Source of the DNA: Truepera radiovictrix DSM 17093
GTDB taxonomy: Bacteria > Deinococcota > Deinococci > Deinococcales > Trueperaceae
DNA: 64,000 nt
Assembly (NCBI RefSeq): GCF_000092425.1
Contig: NC_014221.1
Coordinates: forward strand, 90,001 to 154,000
Direction of reading: 5' to 3'
Made by a program: the position numbers and the translations under genes. Positions 31,468-42,009 of this stretch are shown here, piece after piece (the stretch's first letter is position 1; every line of letters begins with the position of its first letter). Below the pieces are notes generated by a model. It had not been told where the DNA came from. It ran no database searches and saw nothing but the letters and a program-made list of their open reading frames with translations.

Positions 31468-32526
31468 ATGCTCGGTAAGCTGCGGCGCACCGCCCAAACC
31501 CTGCGCAGCGCTGCCCTCGCCGAAGTGGCGGGGGGGGCGGCGCTGCCGTTGCCCCAGAAGCTCGCGCTCTGGCGACGGGGCTTTAAAAGCACCTCGTACG
31601 TCCTGTTCGACCTGGCACACCACCCCCCCGAAGCGTACGTCTCGGACCTCGAGGTCGCCCGAGCGCGTCGCATCAACGGCGCTTTCGGCCGCATGCTTAA
31701 AGACAAGCTGCTCTTTGAGGCGATGCTGCGGCCCTACGCGCGGGTGCCAAAGGTGCTGGCCCTGATCGAGCGCGGGCGGCTCGTCTGGCTGCCCGAGGTG
31801 GGCGAAAGAGGCGATAAAGGGACGCTAGAGGCGCTCTTTGCACTGTCGCCTGCTGGCGTCATCGCCAAACCCGTGCGCGGCAACAAGGGGCGCGGCGTGC
31901 TCAGCTTGCAGCAGCAGGAAGGGGCGCTCCTGCTGAGCGGTCACGCGGTGACGGCGGCGCGCGCCGAGGAGGTGTTCGCGCAGCTCGACGGCTACCTCGT
32001 CGTCGAGCGCGTCGAGCAAGCGCCGTACGCCGCGCAGATCTTTCCGGGGGCGGCCAACACCGTCCGCGTCCTTAGCATGCGCGACCCCGACACCGGCGAG
32101 GTCTTTTTCCCAGCGGCGATGCACCGCTTCGGCGGGGTCCGCACCCAACCGACCGACAACTTCCAGACGGGTGGGGTAAGCGCCGCTATCGACCTCGCGA
32201 CCGGACGTCTCGGGCGCGCGGTGCGCCACCCCAACGTTACGGGGGGGCGGCTCGTGTGGCTCAGCCACCACCCCGACACGGGCGCTCTCATCGAAGGGGT
32301 CGTGCTACCCCACTGGGAGGCGCTCTTGGCGACGTTGGCGCGCGTCTTGGAGGTCTACCCATTTTTGCGCTACGTCGGTTGGGACGTGCTCGTGACCCCG
32401 GAGGGGGTGTGCCTCATCGAGGGCAACCACAACGTCAACCTAGGGTTGCAGGTGCACGGGCCGCTGCTGCGCGACCCGCGCGTGCGGCGCTTTTACGAAG
32501 CGCACGGGGTGCTGAGGCGCCGTTAG
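31468..32526 (+). CDS. Sugar-transfer-associated ATP-grasp protein
   Basis: 352-aa protein resembling the ATPgrasp_ST family, found beside sugar transferases. A helical N-terminal part ([24 protein letters not shown]) precedes the ATP-grasp fold: [18 protein letters not shown] (ATP loop), [26 protein letters not shown] and [19 protein letters not shown], where Glu-Gly-Asn-His-Asn is the metal end. The reaction is unknown. It follows the CarB-like ATP-grasp by 18 bases and ends overlapping the stop of the convergent COG0523 gene. Confidence 0.85.
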
Positions 32527-33722
32527 GGGTGCGGCACCTCCCAGGCCGGCAGCGGGTCGGCGAACTGCGTCCAACGCGCGACGTCCTCTAGCTCCTCGTC
32601 GGTGAGGAGCGCCCAGCTGAGCCGTCGGCGGATCGCCGCTTCGTCCATGTCAACGCCGATAAAGACGAGCTGCTGCTCGCGGTCGCCCCACACCGGGTGC
32701 CACGAGGCGAGCAGCGCCTGGCGCTCGGCCTCCGGCAGCTCCCACGACGCCTCGGGCAGCGTCGCCCACCAGGTGCCGATGGGGTCTAGGGTGTAGGTCG
32801 GTCCGGCTTTGGAGAGGAGGCCGACGTAGTCCGGGCGGGTCGCCAACCAGAAGGTCCCCTTGGCGCGCAGCACCGCCTCTAGGTGCGGGTCGGCGAGCGC
32901 CGCGGCGAGCCGCTGCGGGTGAAAGGGGGCCCGCGCGCGAAAGACAAAGCTCGAGATGCCGTACGTGTCGGTTTCGGGGCGGTGTTCGCTCGCTAGCTCC
33001 TGCAACCACGCCGCGGACTGCGAGGCCGCCTCGAGGTCGAAGCGGCCGGTGTGCAGCACCGCCTCGAGGGGTACGCGGCCCCTTTCGGCGCGGTAGAGGG
33101 CGGCTCGCGGGTTGAGCGCGCGCAGCACCGCCTCGAGGCGCTCGAGCTCGGCGTCGCCCACGAGGTCGGTTTTGTTGACCACGATGACATCAGCCCACTC
33201 GACCTGGTCGGCGAGCAGCGCGGCGACGGTGCGTTCGTCGCCCTCGCCGGCGCTCTCGCCGCGCTCGGCGAGGTCGTCGTCGCAGGCGAGGTCGCGCGGA
33301 AAGGTGGCCGCGTCGACCACCGTCACCAGGGCGTCGAGCCGCGCAACTTCGGACAAGCTCGCACCGGTCGCGTCCTCAAAGACGAACGTCTGCGCGACCG
33401 GTAGCGGCTCCGAGATGCCGGTCGACTCGACGAGCAGGTAGTCGAAGCGGCCCGCGCGGGCGAGCCGGCTGACCTCGCGCAGGAGGTCGTCGCGCAGCGT
33501 GCAGCAGATGCAGCCGTTGCTGAGTTCGACGAGCGTCTCCTCGGTGCGGCTGAGCCCAGCGTCCCCGCGCGCGACGAGCTCGCGGTCGATATTCACCTCG
33601 CTCATGTCGTTGACGATGACGGCGACTTTGAGCCCTTGGCGGTTACTTAGCACGTGGTTGAGCAGCGTCGTTTTGCCCGCGCCGAGAAAGCCGGAGAGGA
33701 CGGTGACGGGAAGGGGGAGCAA
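32523..33722 (-). CDS. COG0523 metallochaperone GTPase (CobW/YjiA/ZNG1 type)
   Basis: 399-aa G3E GTPase. Walker [10 protein letters not shown] is at residues 11-19, the metal-binding CxCC is Cys71, Cys73, Cys74 in NGCICCTL, and Walker B/switch residues lie in [11 protein letters not shown]. The C-terminal CobW_C domain follows from about 265. COG0523 members insert or deliver metals such as zinc or cobalt, and many are controlled by Zur. A weak palindrome about 80 bases upstream could be such a site. An acidic insert ([16 protein letters not shown]) lies mid-protein. Confidence 0.9.
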
Positions 33723-34196: not shown

Positions 34197-35171
34197 TCAG
34201 ACCGCGAAGAGGTCGTCGGCGGTGATCGGTCTCGTCTTTTTCGCGTACGCCGTCGGGCGTTTGTGGAAAAAGTCCACCTGTTTGCTGCTTAAGAGCTCCT
34301 CCTCGAACCACCTCGTGGGCGCTAGGAGCGCCGGGTCGACCTCCCAGAGGGGCGCCTCACCGAGCGCCACGAGCGCGCCGTTAAAGCGCGCCTGCATAAA
34401 GGCCTCGAGCTGCGCGAGGGGCAGAAACGGCAGCGCGCCGGCTTCGCAGATCCAGCGCAAGATTGCGCGCTCGGCGCGCTCGGCGTCGACGCAGGCCGCT
34501 CTAAGGCGCGCGCTAAAGGCGGCGCCAAACCACTCCGGACGCTCGCGCCTCAGGGTCTCGACGAGCTTGTAGCCGAACATCCCGTGGATCTGCTCCTCTT
34601 TGCTGGTCGCCTCGACGATGTTGGCGACCCCCTTAAAGCGCCCCGTGGCCTGGTTGAAGGCTTTGAGGATGAGAAACTGCCCGAAGAGGCTGACGTGTTC
34701 GACAAAGGCGCTAAAGAGGGCCACGCTAAAGGCGTCGTCTCGGCCGTCTTGCCGCACGGGCACGAGGTGGGCGTCGAGCACCGCGAGGCGTTCGCCGAGC
34801 GCGGGCGCCTCGTGCAGCCGTGCAAACGCGTCGGTCAAGCCGAGCAGCTCGAGCAGGTGCGCGTAGGCATCTTGGTGGCGCACCTCCGACTCGGCGAAGG
34901 TGTAACCCACCGCGCCGACCTCGGGTTTGGGGAACTTCCGGTAGAGGTCGCCCCAAAAGGTCTTGACGGCCACCTCGACCTGGGCGATGGCGAGGAGCGC
35001 GCGCGTCAGCACCTGGCGCTCGGCCTCACGCACCCCGACGCGGTAGTCGTTCACGTCTTCGGTGAGGTTGTACTCGGTGTGCAGCCAGTACGAGTGGCGG
35101 ATCGCGTCGCGGTAGGCCAAAAACTCGGGGTACTCGGCGGGTCGGAGGGTGCTGCGGCGTTCGGTGAGCAT
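34197..35171 (-). CDS. nrdB: Ribonucleotide reductase class I beta (radical) subunit
   Basis: 324-aa ferritin-like subunit that makes and holds the radical for dNTP synthesis. Metal ligands by pattern: Glu66 (QVEVAVK), Glu96 and His99 in FAESEVRHQDAY, Glu158 in EHVSLFGQF, Glu193 and His196 in SKEEQIHGMFG. Tyr103 is at the usual radical-tyrosine position. The first ligand looks to be Glu where Escherichia coli has Asp84, so the metal type is open. ATG 35171 overlaps the nrdA stop (TGATG). Last gene of the B12-switched operon. Confidence 0.92.
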   Translation of the reverse strand: MLTERRSTLRPAEYPEFLAYRDAIRHSYWLHTEYNLTEDVNDYRVGVREAERQVLTRALLAIAQVEVAVKTFWGDLYRKFPKPEVGAVGYTFAESEVRHQDAYAHLLELLGLTDAFARLHEAPALGERLAVLDAHLVPVRQDGRDDAFSVALFSAFVEHVSLFGQFLILKAFNQATGRFKGVANIVEATSKEEQIHGMFGYKLVETLRRERPEWFGAAFSARLRAACVDAERAERAILRWICEAGALPFLPLAQLEAFMQARFNGALVALGEAPLWEVDPALLAPTRWFEEELLSSKQVDFFHKRPTAYAKKTRPITADDLFAV

Positions 35172-36835
35172 CAGGCCTCGCAAGCGGAGCAGGTCAGCAG
35201 CTCGCGGTTCAACGCCTGGGCGGCGCTGATCGCGTGCTGGTAGTAGAGGCTTTTAAGGCCGCGCGCGTGCGCCTCTAACACGAGGGCGTTGAGGTCGCGC
35301 GCGGGGGTCTCGGGGTGGATCATGAGGTTTAACGACTGCCCCTGGTCGATAAACGCTTGGCGCCCCGCCGCCTGCACGATGATGTCGCGCGGGCTGATCT
35401 CGCTAAAGGTGGCGAACACCCCCTTCTCCTCGTCGCTTAAGCAGTCGAGGTGCTGCACGCTGCCGTCGTGCGCCAAGATGCTCCGCCACACCGCAGGGGT
35501 GTCGTGGCCGCGCTCCCGCAATACCTCGCGCAGCGCGGGGTTGCGGTAGGTCACGACCGCCTTGGCGAGGTCGCGCACGTAGTAGTTCGAGCGCAGCGGT
35601 TCGACGCTCGGCGACACCCCGCCGAGGATAAAGGCGCTCGAGGTCGTCGGTGCGACCGCGAGCAAGGTGGTGTTGCGCCGCCCCGTCCCCTCGCAGAGCG
35701 CCGGTTCGCCGTAGCGGCGGGCGAGCTCGGCCGAGGCGTCGTCGGCCGCCTCGCGCAGCTCGCGGAAGATCTGGCGGTTGAGGAGCGCCGCCTGCAGGCT
35801 CCCGAAGGGGACGCGCCGCGCCTGCAAGAGGCTGTGGTAGCCGACGACGCCGACGCCCAGGGCGCGGTGGCGCACGGCGAAGCGCCGCGCCCGCTCGAAA
35901 AAGGGCAGCGAGGCGCTCTTGTCGATAAATTCCGTCATCACCGCGTCGAGGAAAAAGACGAGCAGCCTGACCGCGTCGGTCGCGCGCCACGCGTCATAGG
36001 TCGCGAGGTTCATGCTGGCTAGGTCGCAGACGAACGACTCGTCTTCGGCGACGGGGAGCATGATCTCGGTGCAGAGGTTGCTCGAGCGAACCACTAGCCC
36101 CCGGTCGCGGTAGACCTCGGGGGCGCCGCGCGTGGCGTTGTCGGTAAAGAGCACGTAGGGCAAGCCGACCTCGGTGCGCTTTTGCAGCACCTTGGCCCAC
36201 ACGCGGCGTTTGTCCGCGTCGCCTGCGCGCATCGCCTCGAGCCACGCGTCGCTCACCGCGACCCCGAAAAAGAGGTTTTGGATGGGGTTGCCGTCCGAGC
36301 GGATCGCCAAAAACTCCTCGACGTCGGGGTGGTCGATCGGCAAATAGGCGGCGAACGACCCGCGCCGCGTCGCCCCCTGTTTGGTGACGTCGATGAGCGT
36401 GTCAAAAAGCCGCAAAAAGTTGACCGCCCCCTCGGAAAAGCCGTTGTCGCGAATTGGCGCGCCGCGAGGCCTAAGGTCGCCGAAGTAGGCGCTCGTCCCG
36501 CCGCCATACTTGCTCATGATCCCGACCTCGGCGGCTGCCCCCAAGATCCCCGCCATGCTGTCGGGGACGTACGAGCCAAAGCAGCTGATAGGCAGGCCGC
36601 GCGAGAGGCCGAAGTTCGCCCAGATGGGCGACGAGAGCGAGTAGAAGCCGCGCGCGAGGTAGTCGAAAAAGCGCTCGGCGAAGCCGGGGAGACCGAGGAG
36701 CGCCTCGGCCCGTTCGCTGATCTGCCTGAGGCGCCCTTCGGGGCTCACGCCCGGGAGCAGGTAGCCGCGGCGCAAAAAGGCGCGGCTCTCTTCGGTGAGC
36801 CACGCAAAGCGCGGCGCGCTCACGGGGGCGCTCAC
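35171..36835 (-). CDS. nrdA: Ribonucleotide reductase class I alpha (catalytic) subunit
   Basis: 554-aa short alpha subunit without an N-terminal ATP-cone, so overall activity control by dATP through that domain is absent. Catalytic residues are visible: Cys85 in PISCFGSYV, Asn253-Cys255-Glu257 in NLCTEIMLP, partner Cys270 in VCDLASMNL, the radical-path pair Tyr531-Tyr532 in LKSLYYQHA, and the C-terminal redox pair CSACEA. Starts at GTG 36835, overlapping the thioesterase stop (GTGA). Usual class I alpha chains are about 750 aa; this matches the short group seen in some other phyla. Confidence 0.93.
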   Translation of the reverse strand: MSAPVSAPRFAWLTEESRAFLRRGYLLPGVSPEGRLRQISERAEALLGLPGFAERFFDYLARGFYSLSSPIWANFGLSRGLPISCFGSYVPDSMAGILGAAAEVGIMSKYGGGTSAYFGDLRPRGAPIRDNGFSEGAVNFLRLFDTLIDVTKQGATRRGSFAAYLPIDHPDVEEFLAIRSDGNPIQNLFFGVAVSDAWLEAMRAGDADKRRVWAKVLQKRTEVGLPYVLFTDNATRGAPEVYRDRGLVVRSSNLCTEIMLPVAEDESFVCDLASMNLATYDAWRATDAVRLLVFFLDAVMTEFIDKSASLPFFERARRFAVRHRALGVGVVGYHSLLQARRVPFGSLQAALLNRQIFRELREAADDASAELARRYGEPALCEGTGRRNTTLLAVAPTTSSAFILGGVSPSVEPLRSNYYVRDLAKAVVTYRNPALREVLRERGHDTPAVWRSILAHDGSVQHLDCLSDEEKGVFATFSEISPRDIIVQAAGRQAFIDQGQSLNLMIHPETPARDLNALVLEAHARGLKSLYYQHAISAAQALNRELLTCSACEA

Positions 36836-37233
36836 GCCCCCACCCTTTGCGCCAGCGGCGGGACCGGCACCGGTTTGCCGTCGTCACCGAGCGCCACCAG
36901 GGTAAAGGCGCCGCGGCAGGCGAGCTCGCGCCCCTCGCGCTCCATCGGTTCGATCCACATCTCGACGGCGACCTCGAGCGAGGTGCGGCCGGTGCGCGCG
37001 ACCTGCGCCACGAGCTCGACGATCGACCCTTCGGGGACGGGGCGCCGAAACGACAGGTCGCTCGAGTGCACGGTGACCACCCGGCGGCGGCAGTAGCGGG
37101 TGGCGCAGATAAAGGCGGCTTGGTCCATCCAGGCCATCGCCTGACCACCGAAGAGGGTGTGGTAGTGGTTGGTGTCGCTTGGAAAGACGGGGTGGACGAG
37201 CCGCGTCTCGGCGGCTCTGGTGGTTGTGGGCAT
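36832..37233 (-). CDS. Acyl-CoA thioesterase, hotdog fold (YciA/BFIT type)
   Basis: 133-aa hotdog protein: VFPSDTNHYHTLFGGQAMAWMDQAAF carries the conserved Asn/His-rich start and Gly-Gly, followed by VVTVHSSDLSFRRPVPEGSI. The family hydrolyses acyl-CoAs. ATG 37233 has GGGGGAG upstream. It is first in the operon with nrdA and nrdB and next after the cobalamin riboswitch; its link to nucleotide reduction is not obvious. Confidence 0.87.
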   Translation of the reverse strand: MPTTTRAAETRLVHPVFPSDTNHYHTLFGGQAMAWMDQAAFICATRYCRRRVVTVHSSDLSFRRPVPEGSIVELVAQVARTGRTSLEVAVEMWIEPMEREGRELACRGAFTLVALGDDGKPVPVPPLAQRVGA

Positions 37234-37419
37234 AGACTCCCCCTCGCTCGGAGACGTCCGAACGTCCGGCGCGCTGACGAGCGCCGTGCACAGCTCACGT
37301 GAGCGGTCGACGGGTTGCAGCGGTTGAGATTGCAGCGGGTGGGTGTCCCAGCTGGCCGCGCGCGGCGGCGAGCGGGCGCGCAAGGGTCTAGGGTCCTGCC
37401 ATCGGCCACCTCTTTCGCC

Positions 37420-37615
37420 TCTGACGCGGAGGCTACAGGGTTACGCCGCACCGTGGGTACTCGGGCTTCGCTTGGTGACCCAAGCGTTACCGTTGCGCGA
37501 CAGCGCCGGACTCTCACCGGTCTTCCCCCAAGGCGTCCGTCGGCCGAGGGCCATGGACGACCGAGCGGTGCGGCGGCTGCTACAACTAGCAGCAGGTAAA
37601 GAGCACCCTACAACA
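37420..37615 (-). promoter_or_regulatory. Cobalamin riboswitch
   Basis: On the minus strand this region reads as a B12 riboswitch. It has GGGGGAAGACCGGTGAGAG, then AGTCCGGCGCTG (37500-37532), GCGCAACGGTAA (37487-37498) and GAAGCCCGAGTACC (37456-37469), matching the conserved GGGAA-GGTGNNAATCC-GC-GCNACTGTNA-AGNC-GANACC order. A 5' GGTGC element and stem-loops lie at about 37540-37610. It is about 200 bases upstream of the thioesterase-nrdA-nrdB operon and directed at it. A hairpin at 37417-37433 may belong to the expression platform. Confidence 0.88.
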
Positions 37616-37703
37616 TGTGGTTGGGCTTGGCAAGCGGTCGCCCGGAGCCTCCCGGGCCGCAGCGCGCGGGACGTTTATCCCCCTAGCGCGGCGCGCGGCC
37701 TGT

Positions 37704-37719: not shown

Positions 37720-38070
37720 ATGAGCGCCAGGGGTTGGTGGAGGTCGGGTGCGTGGACGCCGGACGTGGGGACGTCGCTCCGCCGCGGCTTCCGCGTGGGC
37801 GTGGCCGGTTACGCGCTCGCCTTTCTCGTCACCGCGCTGCTGCTCGCCCCCCTGATCGCGGACAGCTGCAGCTTCGGCCTTCACCCCCATAGCGACGCCC
37901 AAGCACACCACCTCTGCGCCACGGTTTCGGTGGCCTCAGCTGAGGCGACGGTCGACGCGCCGAAGCCTCAGCTGAGCCGCGTTGGCGTGCGCCCCAGGGG
38001 CGGCGTGCAGTACCTCGAGCGCCGCACCCCACCCCGCGCCAACGGTTCGCGCGCCCCCCCTGTCGCCTAG
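37720..38070 (+). CDS. Small membrane protein with His/Cys-rich segment, unknown
   Basis: 116-aa protein with one clear membrane helix (VGVAGYALAFLVTALLLAPLI) followed by DSCSFGLHPHSDAQAHHLC, a stretch with two Cys and four His that could bind a metal or haem. The C-terminal third is basic and disordered. It lies just upstream of a haem-type uptake operon, which suggests a role in metal or haem handling, but this is inference. I do not recognise the family. Confidence 0.55.
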   Translation: MSARGWWRSGAWTPDVGTSLRRGFRVGVAGYALAFLVTALLLAPLIADSCSFGLHPHSDAQAHHLCATVSVASAEATVDAPKPQLSRVGVRPRGGVQYLERRTPPRANGSRAPPVA

Positions 38071-38326
38071 CGCACGCCCCTCCACAAAGACCAAACGGGA
38101 GCCGTACCGCGGCTACCCCTATGCCGGTGCCGTCGTCCGCGCACCCGCACCGCTGGCGCGGCTCACGGAGCCACGCCCCATACCCGCATCTGGCACGGGT
38201 CGACGGCGTCTACCTGCGGCGTCTTTACACCGGCGCCACCCCGGCGCGGTGAACGCGCGCCGAGACCTCGCTGCAGCGCCGCGCTCACCGCGCGCGCTAC
38301 GTGCCTATGGCGAAAGGAACCCCTTG
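38071..38326 (+). other. Gap before the haem-uptake operon
   Basis: 256 bases upstream of the first binding-protein gene. The reading frame is open through it, but composition and sequence do not look like protein; it probably holds the operon promoter. No riboswitch pattern is visible. Confidence 0.4.
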
Positions 38327-39268
38327 ATGAACGTCTTGTCCGTTTGCCCCCCGCTTCGCGCCCTGCTCGTCGCCCTCGCCGTCCTCGCCCCGGCGCCCGC
38401 CGTCGCCGCGGGCGCTATGGGCGCTGCGGTGCCGCCCGAAGCGCGCATCGTCAGCCTGCACTTCTACGCCACCGAGGCGCTCTTGGAGCTCGGCCTGAGC
38501 GAGCAGGTCGTCGGGATCGACATCATGTCGCGCAGCTACTACGACGCTGCGCTTGACCGCAGCTTTGCAGAGCTGCCCGTCATCGGTCACTGGGCCGACC
38601 TAAGCGCCGAGAGCGTGCTCGCGCTGCAGCCGACGCTCGTCGTCGGGACCGAGCGGAGCGGCCCCGAGACGGCGGTGCGGCAGCTCCAGGGGGCGACCGA
38701 GGTGCTCCTATTGGACCCGCGCGACGACCTTGCGGGGGCGCTGGCGCGGGTCGGGCAGCTCGCGGCCCACCTCGGGCTCGAGGGGCGCGCGGCGGCGCTC
38801 GAAGCCGAGATGGCGGCGGTGCGCGCCGAGCTCGCCGCGCGCACGGCCGCGGTCGAGCCCGTCGGCGCCCTCGCGCTCGCTTCGCACGGCGGCGTCGAAC
38901 GGGTCTGCGGGCGCGGGCCGCACGAGACGCTGCTCGAGCTCGCCGGCCTCACGAACCTCGCGCCGCAGGTGAGCGCCTGCGAGGAGCTGAGCCGCGAGGC
39001 GCTCGTCGGGATCGACGCCGAGGTGCTGGTGTTCTCCAACCCCGAGACCTTCGACTTTTTCGGCGGGCACGAGGGGCTGAGCGCCCACCCGGTCTTCGGT
39101 CGCACCGAGGCGGTGCGCCAGGAGCGCTACATCGTCCTGGGGAGCGCCGAGCAGGTGCTGGGCGTCGGGTTGCGCACCCCGAGCTTTGCGCTGGCGCTGC
39201 ACGAGGCGGTCTACGGCCACGAGGGTCCGGTCGTGATCGAGCGCGATTTGGCGGTGGCGCCGCTATGA
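38327..39268 (+). CDS. Haem-type ABC transporter substrate-binding protein 1 (HmuT-like)
   Basis: 313-aa periplasmic binding protein of the BtuF/HmuT class. A signal peptide (LRALLVALAVLAPAPAVAAG) precedes ARIVSLHFYATEALLELGLSEQVVG. Two lobes joined by a long helix are expected. A Cys pair (VCGRGPHETL and SACEEL) is shared with the next gene. ATG 38327 has AAAGGA upstream. The stop overlaps the next start by 4 bases. Confidence 0.82.
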   Translation: MNVLSVCPPLRALLVALAVLAPAPAVAAGAMGAAVPPEARIVSLHFYATEALLELGLSEQVVGIDIMSRSYYDAALDRSFAELPVIGHWADLSAESVLALQPTLVVGTERSGPETAVRQLQGATEVLLLDPRDDLAGALARVGQLAAHLGLEGRAAALEAEMAAVRAELAARTAAVEPVGALALASHGGVERVCGRGPHETLLELAGLTNLAPQVSACEELSREALVGIDAEVLVFSNPETFDFFGGHEGLSAHPVFGRTEAVRQERYIVLGSAEQVLGVGLRTPSFALALHEAVYGHEGPVVIERDLAVAPL

Positions 39269-40179
39269 GGCGCTACCTAATGGGGGTCGTTTGCGCAGCG
39301 CTGGTTGCGTTGCTGGGCTCGGCGCTGGCCCAAGAGCGCATCGTCAGCCTCCACCAGAAGACGACCGACGTGCTTTTCGACCTTGGGTTGGCCGAGGCGG
39401 TCGTCGGCCGCAGCTTCCACTCGAGCCCCTTCGTCGACCCCGCGTCGGGCGTGAGCGCCGAAGACCTTCCCGACATCGGTTTCGAGTTTAACGTGAGCGC
39501 CGAGGCGGTCCTCGCGCTCTCGCCCACCCTCATCGTCGGCACCGAGGACAACGGCCCGCCGCAGGCGATAGCGCAGCTGCGGGGCGCGGGCGTGCCCGTG
39601 CTGCTGGTGAGCGCTCAGAGCGACCTGGAGGGGAGCGCCGCGCGTATCCGGGAGATCGCCGCGGCGCTGGGGGTGAGTGGGCGCGGCGAGGCGCTCCTCG
39701 AGCGGCTCGAGGCGCAGCGCCAGGCGTTGGAAGCGCGCCTCGCCGCCACCCCCGAGCGCGTCGGCGGCCTCGTGATGGTCGGCTGGTCGGGGGCGCCGCA
39801 GGCCTGCGGCGGCGATTCCGACTTTCACGCCATGTACGTTCTGGCGGGCGGCCACAACCTGTTAGAGGCGCTTAACGGCTGTCCGGAGATCAACCCCGAG
39901 GCGTTGCCCGAACTACCGGTCGATGTCCTTTTCTTCCCCGCCCTCAGCCAGTACGAAGCGGTCGGCGGCGTCGCCGGTCTGCGCGCGCGACCTGGCTTCG
40001 CCCAGCTGCGCGCGGTGCAAACGGGGCGCGCGGTGATCATGGAGAGCCCAGCTTTTCGCGGTATGGGAGCGAGTGCGCCGCGGTTTGCTCAGGCGATCCA
40101 CGAAGCGCTCTATGAGCACGGCGGGGTCGTGCTGGTGACGCCAGAGGGCGCCGTAACCCCCTACGCCGAGGCGCCGTGA
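39265..40179 (+). CDS. Haem-type ABC transporter substrate-binding protein 2 (HmuT-like)
   Basis: 304-aa paralogue of the protein just upstream, with signal peptide (VCAALVALLGSALA) and ERIVSLHQKTTDVLFDLGLAEAVVG. The Cys pair appears again as QACGGDSDFHAMYVL and NGCPEINPEAL. Both proteins read as bona fide binding proteins, so they may bind different ligands or work in relay with the one permease. Four-base overlaps link it to both neighbours. Confidence 0.82.
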   Translation: MRRYLMGVVCAALVALLGSALAQERIVSLHQKTTDVLFDLGLAEAVVGRSFHSSPFVDPASGVSAEDLPDIGFEFNVSAEAVLALSPTLIVGTEDNGPPQAIAQLRGAGVPVLLVSAQSDLEGSAARIREIAAALGVSGRGEALLERLEAQRQALEARLAATPERVGGLVMVGWSGAPQACGGDSDFHAMYVLAGGHNLLEALNGCPEINPEALPELPVDVLFFPALSQYEAVGGVAGLRARPGFAQLRAVQTGRAVIMESPAFRGMGASAPRFAQAIHEALYEHGGVVLVTPEGAVTPYAEAP

Positions 40180-41207
40180 GCGCGCGCTACCGCACGGCGC
40201 TCGTGGGCTGCGCGCTCGCGCTCCCGCCGGCGCTGCTGCTGGCCGCGGGGCTGGGCGCCTTTTACATCCCGCCCCTTGAGATCCCGCGGGTGCTGCTCGA
40301 GCGCGGACTCGGCTACGAGGTGCTGACGCAGATCCGCCTGCCCCGCGTGCTGATGACCGCGCTTGTCGGCGCCGGGCTGGCGGTGGCGGGGGCGGTCTTG
40401 CAGGGGCTCTTTCGCAACCCGCTGGCCGAGCCGAGCTTGATCGGCGTGAGCTCGGGCGCCGCGCTGGGGGCCGCGGTGTGGATCGTGCTCCTGGGCGGGG
40501 GTTTCGGCTCCGGTCAGCCGGTGCGGGCGAGCGCGGCCTTTCAGTGGGGGTTGCCCCTCGCTGCCTTCGTCGGCGCTTGCGTGACCACGCTGCTGGTGTG
40601 GCGCGTCGCGCGAACGGGCGGGCGCACGCTGGTCGTGAGCTTGCTGCTAGCGGGGATCGCCATGAACAGCTTGGCGGGTGCGGGCATCGGCCTGATGCAG
40701 TTTTTCGCCGACGACCAGCAGCTGCGCAGCTTCGTCTTCTGGACGCTGGGCGGTTTTAACCGGGTGAGCTGGCGCGAGTTCTGGGTCGCTGCGCCCCTTA
40801 TCGCGCTCGCGCTGGCGCTCCTGCTGCGCCAAGGGAGGCGCCTCAACGCGCTCGTGCTCGGCGAGTCCGAGGCCTATCTGCTGGGCGTCCAGGTCGAGCG
40901 GGTCAAACGGCGGGCGGTCGTCTTGAGCGCGCTGCTGGTCGGTGCGAGCGTCGCGGTCGCCGGGGTGATCGGTTTCGTGGGGCTGGTGGTGCCGCACATG
41001 TTCCGGCTCGTCGCTGGCCCCGACCACCGCTACTTGCTGCCCGGTGCGGCGCTCATGGGCGCGAGCTTGCTGCTCGTGGCCGACGTGCTCTGCCGCACCC
41101 TGCTGGTTCCGGCCGAGCTGCCCATCGGCATCCTCACTGCGCTCGTCGGCGGCCCCTTTTTCATCTACCTGCTCACCGTTCAGCAGCGCGAGGTGCTGCG
41201 TGCTTGA
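40176..41207 (+). CDS. FecCD-family ABC permease (HmuU-like)
   Basis: 343-aa inner-membrane permease with about ten helices. Family features are IRLPRVLMTALVGAGLAVAGAVLQGLFRNPLAEPSLIGVSSGA in successive parts and GFVGLVVPHMFRLVAGPDHRYLLP near the C-terminus. Transports haem, B12 or siderophores. Start GTG overlaps the upstream stop (GTGA). Its own end overlaps the ATPase start by 8 bases. Confidence 0.92.
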   Translation: MSARYRTALVGCALALPPALLLAAGLGAFYIPPLEIPRVLLERGLGYEVLTQIRLPRVLMTALVGAGLAVAGAVLQGLFRNPLAEPSLIGVSSGAALGAAVWIVLLGGGFGSGQPVRASAAFQWGLPLAAFVGACVTTLLVWRVARTGGRTLVVSLLLAGIAMNSLAGAGIGLMQFFADDQQLRSFVFWTLGGFNRVSWREFWVAAPLIALALALLLRQGRRLNALVLGESEAYLLGVQVERVKRRAVVLSALLVGASVAVAGVIGFVGLVVPHMFRLVAGPDHRYLLPGAALMGASLLLVADVLCRTLLVPAELPIGILTALVGGPFFIYLLTVQQREVLRA

Positions 41208-42009
41208 GGTGTCGGGGCTCGGTTACCGCGCCGCGGGGCGCTGGTTGGTGCGCGACGTCGCGCTGCAGGTGCCGGCGGGGGAGTTCTGCGCCATCTTGGG
41301 GCCCAACGGGGCGGGCAAAACGACCCTGCTGCGCCTGCTCTCCGGCGAGCTTACCCCCAGCCGCGGCGCGGTGCAGCTGTTGGGCAGACCGCTGAGCAGC
41401 TACGCGCCCCTGGCGCTCGCCCAGCAGCGCGCGCTGCTCAGCCAGAAGCGGCACCTCGAGTTCCCCTTCCGCGCCCTCGAGGTGGTGATGCTCGGCCGCT
41501 TGCCGCACCAGGCGCGTGGGCACGAGACGCCGCGCGACCGCGCCGTCGTCGCCGAGAGCCTGACGCGGGTCGAGGCGCAAGGGCTCTCCGAACGCGTCTA
41601 CCCGAGCCTCTCCGGGGGCGAGGCGAGCCGCGTCGACCTAGCGCGCGTCTTGGCCCAAGAGCCGCAGCTGCTGCTGCTCGACGAACCGACCAATCACCTC
41701 GACCCGCGCCATCAGCTGGCGGTGTTGGCGCTGGCGCGGGAGCTCGCCGCCGGCGGTTGCGCGGTTATCGCCACCATGCACGACCTGAACCTAGCGGCGC
41801 GCTTCGCCGACCGCCTGGTGCTGATGCACCGCGGCGAGGTGGTGAGCCTCGGGAGCGCGAGCGAGGTCCTGACCGAAGACCGGTTGCGCAGCGTCTACGG
41901 CGTCGAGGCCCAGGTGACGCAGCTGCGCGGCCGCCCGCTGGTGGTCCTCGAGGGGGCGACGCCGCGCGACCCGCAACCCCATGACCCGCACGCCCTCGTC
42001 AGCGTTTAG
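41200..42009 (+). CDS. ABC transporter ATPase (HmuV-like)
   Basis: 269-aa ATP-binding subunit: Walker A GPNGAGKTT (34-42), signature LSGGEASRVDLARVLAQ, Walker B LLLLDEPTNHLDP and the H-loop in TMHDLNLAAR. It resembles haem-importer ATPases. The frame-correct start is GTG 41200, inside the end of the permease gene. Confidence 0.9.
   Translation: MLEVSGLGYRAAGRWLVRDVALQVPAGEFCAILGPNGAGKTTLLRLLSGELTPSRGAVQLLGRPLSSYAPLALAQQRALLSQKRHLEFPFRALEVVMLGRLPHQARGHETPRDRAVVAESLTRVEAQGLSERVYPSLSGGEASRVDLARVLAQEPQLLLLDEPTNHLDPRHQLAVLALARELAAGGCAVIATMHDLNLAARFADRLVLMHRGEVVSLGSASEVLTEDRLRSVYGVEAQVTQLRGRPLVVLEGATPRDPQPHDPHALVSV

Follow-up and report, generated by a model that had tools for sequence, protein, structure and literature searches.

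A 64,000-nucleotide stretch of the Truepera radiovictrix DSM 17093 genome (NC_014221.1, positions 90,001 to 154,000; hereafter the window) carries a predicted cobalamin riboswitch in front of genes for an acyl-coenzyme A (CoA) thioesterase and for NrdA and NrdB, the subunits of a class I ribonucleotide reductase (RNR). Why should such a reductase stand behind a vitamin B12 sensor, and what would a thioesterase contribute as its first gene? We consider it likely that thioesterase-nrdA-nrdB is an operon for B12 shortage, i.e. a B12-bypass operon. Plentiful adenosylcobalamin would bind the aptamer and expression of the operon would fall, because the class II RNR NrdJ would then supply the deoxynucleotides; B12 scarcity would turn the operon on, with the class I enzyme replacing NrdJ.

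A permissive cmscan search with RF00174 matched the aptamer over the whole model (1-189) with 31.2 bits (E 3.5e-6), just under the gathering score of 31.5 bits, and a gathering-threshold Rfam scan of the window did not list the riboswitch. Our own covariance model, built from 14 orthologous aptamers including that of the window, gave 88.3 bits for a core at 37452-37531; the second-best site in the window reached only 12.1 bits. Nine of the 18 consensus pairs of this core show double-sided compensatory changes among the 14 orthologues, and the P3-P6 four-way junction is supported by covariation. The original prediction had placed the core at 37456-37532 of the minus strand, in good agreement with our model and with the cmscan match (37435-37580). 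In a family set of 39 genomes, ten possess an nrdA of the TIGR02510 type, namely the window genome and nine relatives labelled Truepera or Trueperaceae. Eight of these nine relatives carry RF00174 above the gathering score (34-54 bits) immediately before nrdA, with no thioesterase there, indicating that the match in the window is not due to chance. Corrinoid binding and a resulting change in expression are predicted for the window aptamer.

The three genes overlap at their ends, nrdB and nrdA by 13 bases and nrdA and the thioesterase gene by 4 bases (GTGA at the thioesterase stop), all on the minus strand, so that the operon structure originally proposed holds. The metal-ligand and radical-tyrosine motifs EVRHQDAY and EEQIH are readable in the NrdB translation. 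A search for nrdJ elsewhere in the genome, which is one contig of 3,260,398 bases, located the class II enzyme at C1:82597 onward (L010:2598 onward), about 7.4 kb upstream of the window start and about 40 kb from the operon. An intein splits the gene, whose 3' portion is masked with N; the visible N-terminal part scores 232 bits over four stretches (TIGR02504 whole-protein cut-off 399.95, which relatives reach). In several relatives the open frame of NrdJ is 1300-1800 residues long, and NrdJ inteins may be frequent in Trueperaceae. Three RF00174 matches were detected in the genome, that of the window included. One precedes a gene for a BtuF-like binding protein (L011) followed by cobalamin salvage genes, and another (L012 4150-4396) precedes an early-stopping BtuF-like frame, probably a shortened copy of that BtuF, with a BtuC-like permease after it (names read from the translations); both thus stand before genes for uptake or salvage of B12. 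Furthermore, the genome encodes three proteins with a B12-binding domain, one of them near a methylmalonyl-CoA mutase match and one in an open frame of 1256 residues, apparently MetH-sized.

The ninth relative (G034, L051), a small genome of 95% completeness, lacks RF00174 genome-wide, including before its nrdA. Neither a NrdJ over the cut-off, nor a B12-binding domain, nor a mutase was found in it, and it seems to have abandoned B12 entirely. In this single case the riboswitch has disappeared along with B12 use, and the comparison supports that B12 turns the operon off. The original prediction referred to known cases, such as Streptomyces nrdAB, in which B12 shuts off class I RNR because a class II enzyme serves in its presence. 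Riboswitch-RNR and NrdJ do occur together in this genome as in Streptomyces, and G034 lends comparative support. Taken together, these data strongly suggest that the class I RNR operon would be switched off by B12.

Is the thioesterase part of the same response? As query against the phylum Deinococcota, the 133-residue protein gave matches in 111 genomes and revealed a subfamily of 49 loci in 45 genomes (56-70% identity), well separated from YciA-like proteins at 38-46%. All 49 loci have a class I RNR in the thioesterase cluster, the loci sit behind RF00174, RF01482 or RF01689, and this search turned up no subfamily member apart from those in such RNR operons. Twenty-eight loci are Thermus-like, 18 Meiothermus-like, and the remaining three belong to G047, G039 and the window (Thermus-like and Meiothermus-like are presumptive names given by us; Thermus and Deinococcus are confirmed by named plasmid records). 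The Thermus-like loci show the order riboswitch-thioesterase-(metE)-nrdB-nrdA with RF00174 before all 28; our own aptamer model matches 26 of the 27 fetched, and the remaining one ends at a contig edge. In the Meiothermus-like loci, with riboswitch-nrdA-(metE)-nrdB-thioesterase or a similar order, the RNR is of class Ib (TIGR04170/TIGR04171), and an AdoCbl-II, AdoCbl or Cobalamin riboswitch lies upstream of nrdA in 18 of 18. G047 and G039 exhibit riboswitch-thioesterase-long NrdA. Three further loci on Deinococcus plasmids (D. radiodurans MP1, D. ficus, Deinococcus sp. AJ005) have the order thioesterase-nrdI-nrdE-nrdF-thioredoxin and are preceded by a cobalamin-like RNA (24-27 bits with our own model, E 1.7e-5 to 1.7e-4). 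Five YciA-like control loci had neither a riboswitch nor an RNR nearby. The gene metE is present in 14 of the 49 operons (broken in one; NCBIfam confirms two). In G095 (L212 3325-3865) two fragments of metE are left between the thioesterase gene and nrdB: metE was lost from a Thermus-type B12 operon that retained thioesterase and RNR.

The occurrence of this subfamily only in such operons, with varied RNR subclasses and sometimes with MetE, argues strongly by association that the thioesterase would belong to the B12-shortage response. A one-off insertion in Truepera was rejected in view of the Thermus, Meiothermus-like and Deinococcus loci. The first position of the thioesterase, as originally described, stands. 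It is no unexplained passenger of this one operon, the subfamily being tied at every locus found to B12-independent RNRs behind cobalamin-clan riboswitches, and its probable link is with B12 shortage, not with deoxynucleotide synthesis as such.

The protein itself passes PF03061 with 74.9 bits (gathering cut-off 20.6) and does not reach the equivalog cut-off of YciA (NF007970; 63.2 bits, cut-off 162), so that by its sequence it is assignable only as a member of the 4HBT superfamily. It shares 60-70% identity with the thioesterases of the Thermus-type B12-bypass operons; its best solved relatives are 2GVH and T. thermophilus TTHB207 (2EIS, E 2.3e-47). The putative catalytic Asp37 is invariant (47 of 47 sequences). 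In a tree the operon thioesterases form one clade apart from the YciA-like proteins (support 100/98).

Which consequence of B12 shortage might such an enzyme relieve? RNR would cover NrdJ and MetE would cover MetH, leaving methylmalonyl-CoA mutase as the remaining widespread B12 enzyme; by this elimination we propose that the thioesterase responds to a stalled mutase. Without adenosylcobalamin the mutase would stall, and propionyl-CoA and methylmalonyl-CoA would build up and trap CoA. Hydrolysis of the accumulated esters by the thioesterase could ease this third B12-dependent step. We put this role forward tentatively, as possible but somewhat short of probable. A mutase is encoded in all 45 carrier genomes. 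Several observations weigh against our interpretation of the operon and of its thioesterase. As 104 of the 111 genomes possess a mutase, its co-occurrence with the thioesterase is uninformative and carries almost no weight. At least six Trueperaceae with a mutase and riboswitch-nrdAB do without the thioesterase, which is thus not obligatory, and hotdog thioesterases of its kind frequently accept a wide range of substrates. The 49 loci are related by descent and represent far fewer independent events; the independent part of this evidence is the switches of RNR subclass and of riboswitch class. Finally, the window aptamer stays 0.3 bits below the RF00174 gathering score.

Table 1. Features of the riboswitch operon, in window positions, from the aptamer to the last gene
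Feature	Position	Strand	Basis
Cobalamin riboswitch aptamer (RF00174)	37435..37580	minus	cmscan and own covariance model; conserved core 37452-37531
Expression-platform hairpin GCCTC-CGCGTCA-GAGGC	37417..37433	minus	conservation in relatives' leaders
Shine-Dalgarno-like AGAGGT	37408-37413	minus	read from sequence
4-codon open reading frame ATG GCA GGA CCC TAG (MAGP-stop)	37388-37402	minus	read from sequence
4HBT hotdog acyl-CoA thioesterase, 133 residues	36832..37233	minus	PF03061 E 6.4e-21
nrdA, class I RNR alpha, NrdE-prime type, 554 residues	35171..36835	minus	TIGR02510 807 bits, cut-off 602
nrdB, class I RNR beta, 328 residues	34197..35183	minus	PF00268 E 2.9e-46

How could the aptamer act on the operon? 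The 17-nucleotide hairpin following it is kept in all leaders. In eight Trueperaceae it has the identical place and length (GCCCT...AGGGC), with two of its five pairs (pairs 4 and 5) differing on both sides from the window in an ungapped alignment, and the Thermus leaders contain a similar hairpin. A search for an intrinsic terminator in the leader gave none above shuffled expectation, which makes control of translation initiation, or Rho, more likely than a classical terminator. Hairpin, Shine-Dalgarno-like sequence and start codon likewise suggest initiation control in preference to an intrinsic terminator. A candidate Rho site is the stretch around 37281-37380, which is rich in C and poor in G. 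Single-strand folding of the whole leader was uninformative (z-score -0.8). Two other ideas were discarded. In the window, L5 could kiss the loop of the hairpin at 37417-37433 with five of six positions paired, a match that is poor in the Trueperaceae relatives and may be fortuitous. A +1 frameshift leading from MAGP to the thioesterase frame is unsupported by relatives, in which the thioesterase has a Shine-Dalgarno sequence of its own.

The start codon behind the hairpin corresponds to the nrdA start of the relatives without thioesterase, where it follows a Shine-Dalgarno sequence. In the window it opens only the reading frame MAGP-stop, 169 bases upstream of the thioesterase start. Equivalent short reading frames occur in 25 of 25 Thermus-type leaders (MPVGP-stop, MRMGP-stop and similar, i.e. 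M..GP-stop), in one f4 leader and in three Deinococcus leaders (MLN-, MRN- and VPN-stop); any one start would meet a stop within nine codons with a probability of 24%. All three stop codons are used, and CCC and CCT are both found whereas TGG is not. This persistence of the short frame with variable stop and proline codons suggests that it may be translated. It is conceivable, if rather improbable, that the Deinococcota possess a whole bypass kit (RNR for NrdJ, MetE for MetH, thioesterase for mutase) combined with a riboswitch-gated minigene of three to six codons which would set downstream expression.

These observations can be read differently in three respects. The thioesterase might be an operon passenger, with a housekeeping role in acyl-CoA metabolism unrelated to B12, carried along in a well-expressed and transferable B12 operon. 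Such a history would fit the sister Trueperaceae, most of which have riboswitch-nrdAB without it, as well as the Thermus and Deinococcus operons on megaplasmids moving as blocks. However, the thioesterase stays with at least three kinds of RNR (TIGR02510, class Ib TIGR04170/TIGR04171 and the long NrdA), remains while gene orders and riboswitch families differ, and was not found outside such operons in the phylum search, so that we regard a passenger as unlikely. Still far less probable is that the window riboswitch is decayed and that its controlled start codon is a relic now opening only a four-codon frame. The score of the aptamer (31.2 versus 31.5 bits), the change of L5 from UGUCCC to UGUCGC and the thioesterase gene now separating the old nrdA start codon from nrdA could be signs of decay, but UGUCGC is also found in intact Meiothermus-type riboswitches and in Deinococcus leaders, the hairpin is preserved with two double-sided changes, and the Thermus leaders, conserved over many genomes, show the same short-frame layout.

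More evenly balanced is the question whether the short frame is a minigene at all. The segment following the hairpin could be an L13 loop kissing L5 (GGGAC/GUCCC), with the reading frame as a by-product. All Thermus-type leaders contain GGGAC or GGAC and G047 contains GGACA, facing an L5 of UGUCCC, and two Thermus leaders shifted by one base nevertheless retain GGGAC. In the window, on the other hand, UGUCGC opposite AGGAC leaves three possible pairs; the shifted Thermus leaders still hold GTG GGA CCC TAA, and the use of all three stop codons and of CCC and CCT without TGG also speaks against a kissing loop. Moreover, the start codon of the short frame corresponds to the true nrdA start in relatives. 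We see about equal grounds for a kissing loop and against it.

Upstream of the aptamer, the relatives (L043-L050) share a conserved CACAAGATGTAGTA element, which possibly represents an NrdR box overlapping the promoter. The window version at 37608-37621 (minus strand) is degenerate with four mismatches, and we make no such claim for it; NrdR is present in the genome. Downstream of nrdB, a CobW-family GTPase (32523-33722, minus strand) is nearest to ZigA, a zinc metallochaperone (570 bits against a cut-off of 600), and probably lies outside the operon. A divergent cluster on the plus strand (37720-42009) encodes two periplasmic binding proteins, a BtuC/FecCD-type permease and an ATPase; it shares its intergenic region with the riboswitch operon, and no riboswitch of its own was seen there. 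Among the loci outside the family at which both genes could be seen, almost all have nrdB ahead of nrdA, and AdoCbl-II or Cobalamin riboswitches lie before TIGR02510-type RNR in some Rhodothermia-type genomes and in one of the Verrucomicrobiota. In Longimonas and related Bacteroidota (L122, L123, L190, at about 930-1050) an AdoCbl-II riboswitch (RF01689) stands before NrdE-prime-type nrdB-nrdA, i.e. a different riboswitch family has been recruited to this RNR. In Verrucomicrobiota KLAP133 (L195) a Cobalamin riboswitch (195-313) precedes a NrdB of 570 residues (680-2392), in which a pyridoxamine-oxidase-like N-terminal part and an ATP-cone-like part, recognized by eye, are fused to the beta subunit.

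The constant presence of a third, unassigned enzyme beside riboswitch and RNR throughout the phylum suggests that B12 shortage has a metabolic consequence in bacteria that has so far been overlooked. Testing this prediction would cost little, given the solved structure 2EIS and members of the subfamily in tractable hosts (D. radiodurans MP1, T. thermophilus pTT27-type plasmids). G034, having lost both B12 use and the riboswitch, provides a natural control for the proposed interplay of NrdJ and NrdAB, and the conserved short reading frame of the leader may reveal a new mode of riboswitch action.

Borovok and co-workers reportedly described a Streptomyces coelicolor nrdABS operon with a B12 riboswitch, next to nrdRJ. 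That system resembles the window in its cobalamin riboswitch before a class I RNR, in NrdJ and NrdR and in the predicted repression by B12, but is not known to include a thioesterase, has nrdS as third gene and belongs to another RNR subclass and phylum. E. coli YciA and H. influenzae HI0827 share with the window protein the hotdog superfamily, the conserved Asp and the motif GG(x)xxxxMD; the window thioesterase, however, remains below the YciA cut-off in a separate clade, and YciA-like genes of the same phylum lie outside B12 operons. The solved hotdog-fold relative TTHB207 (2EIS) is a hypothetical protein, for which we found neither an assigned function nor a paper naming it in the open-access literature. 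Nor did we find a report linking a thioesterase to B12 riboswitch/RNR operons in that literature, which leaves out most subscription journals. While the riboswitch-class I RNR arrangement is already known, a constant thioesterase amid varying RNR subclass, gene order, metE and riboswitch family appears to be new. Cobalamin riboswitches controlling the B12-free metE are established, e.g. in Priestia megaterium and mycobacteria (PMC9600662, PMC8088520). They follow the same logic, the B12-free isozyme being off when the B12-dependent enzyme can work; there, however, a single bypass gene is controlled, whereas the Deinococcota combine several bypass genes and the thioesterase in one operon.

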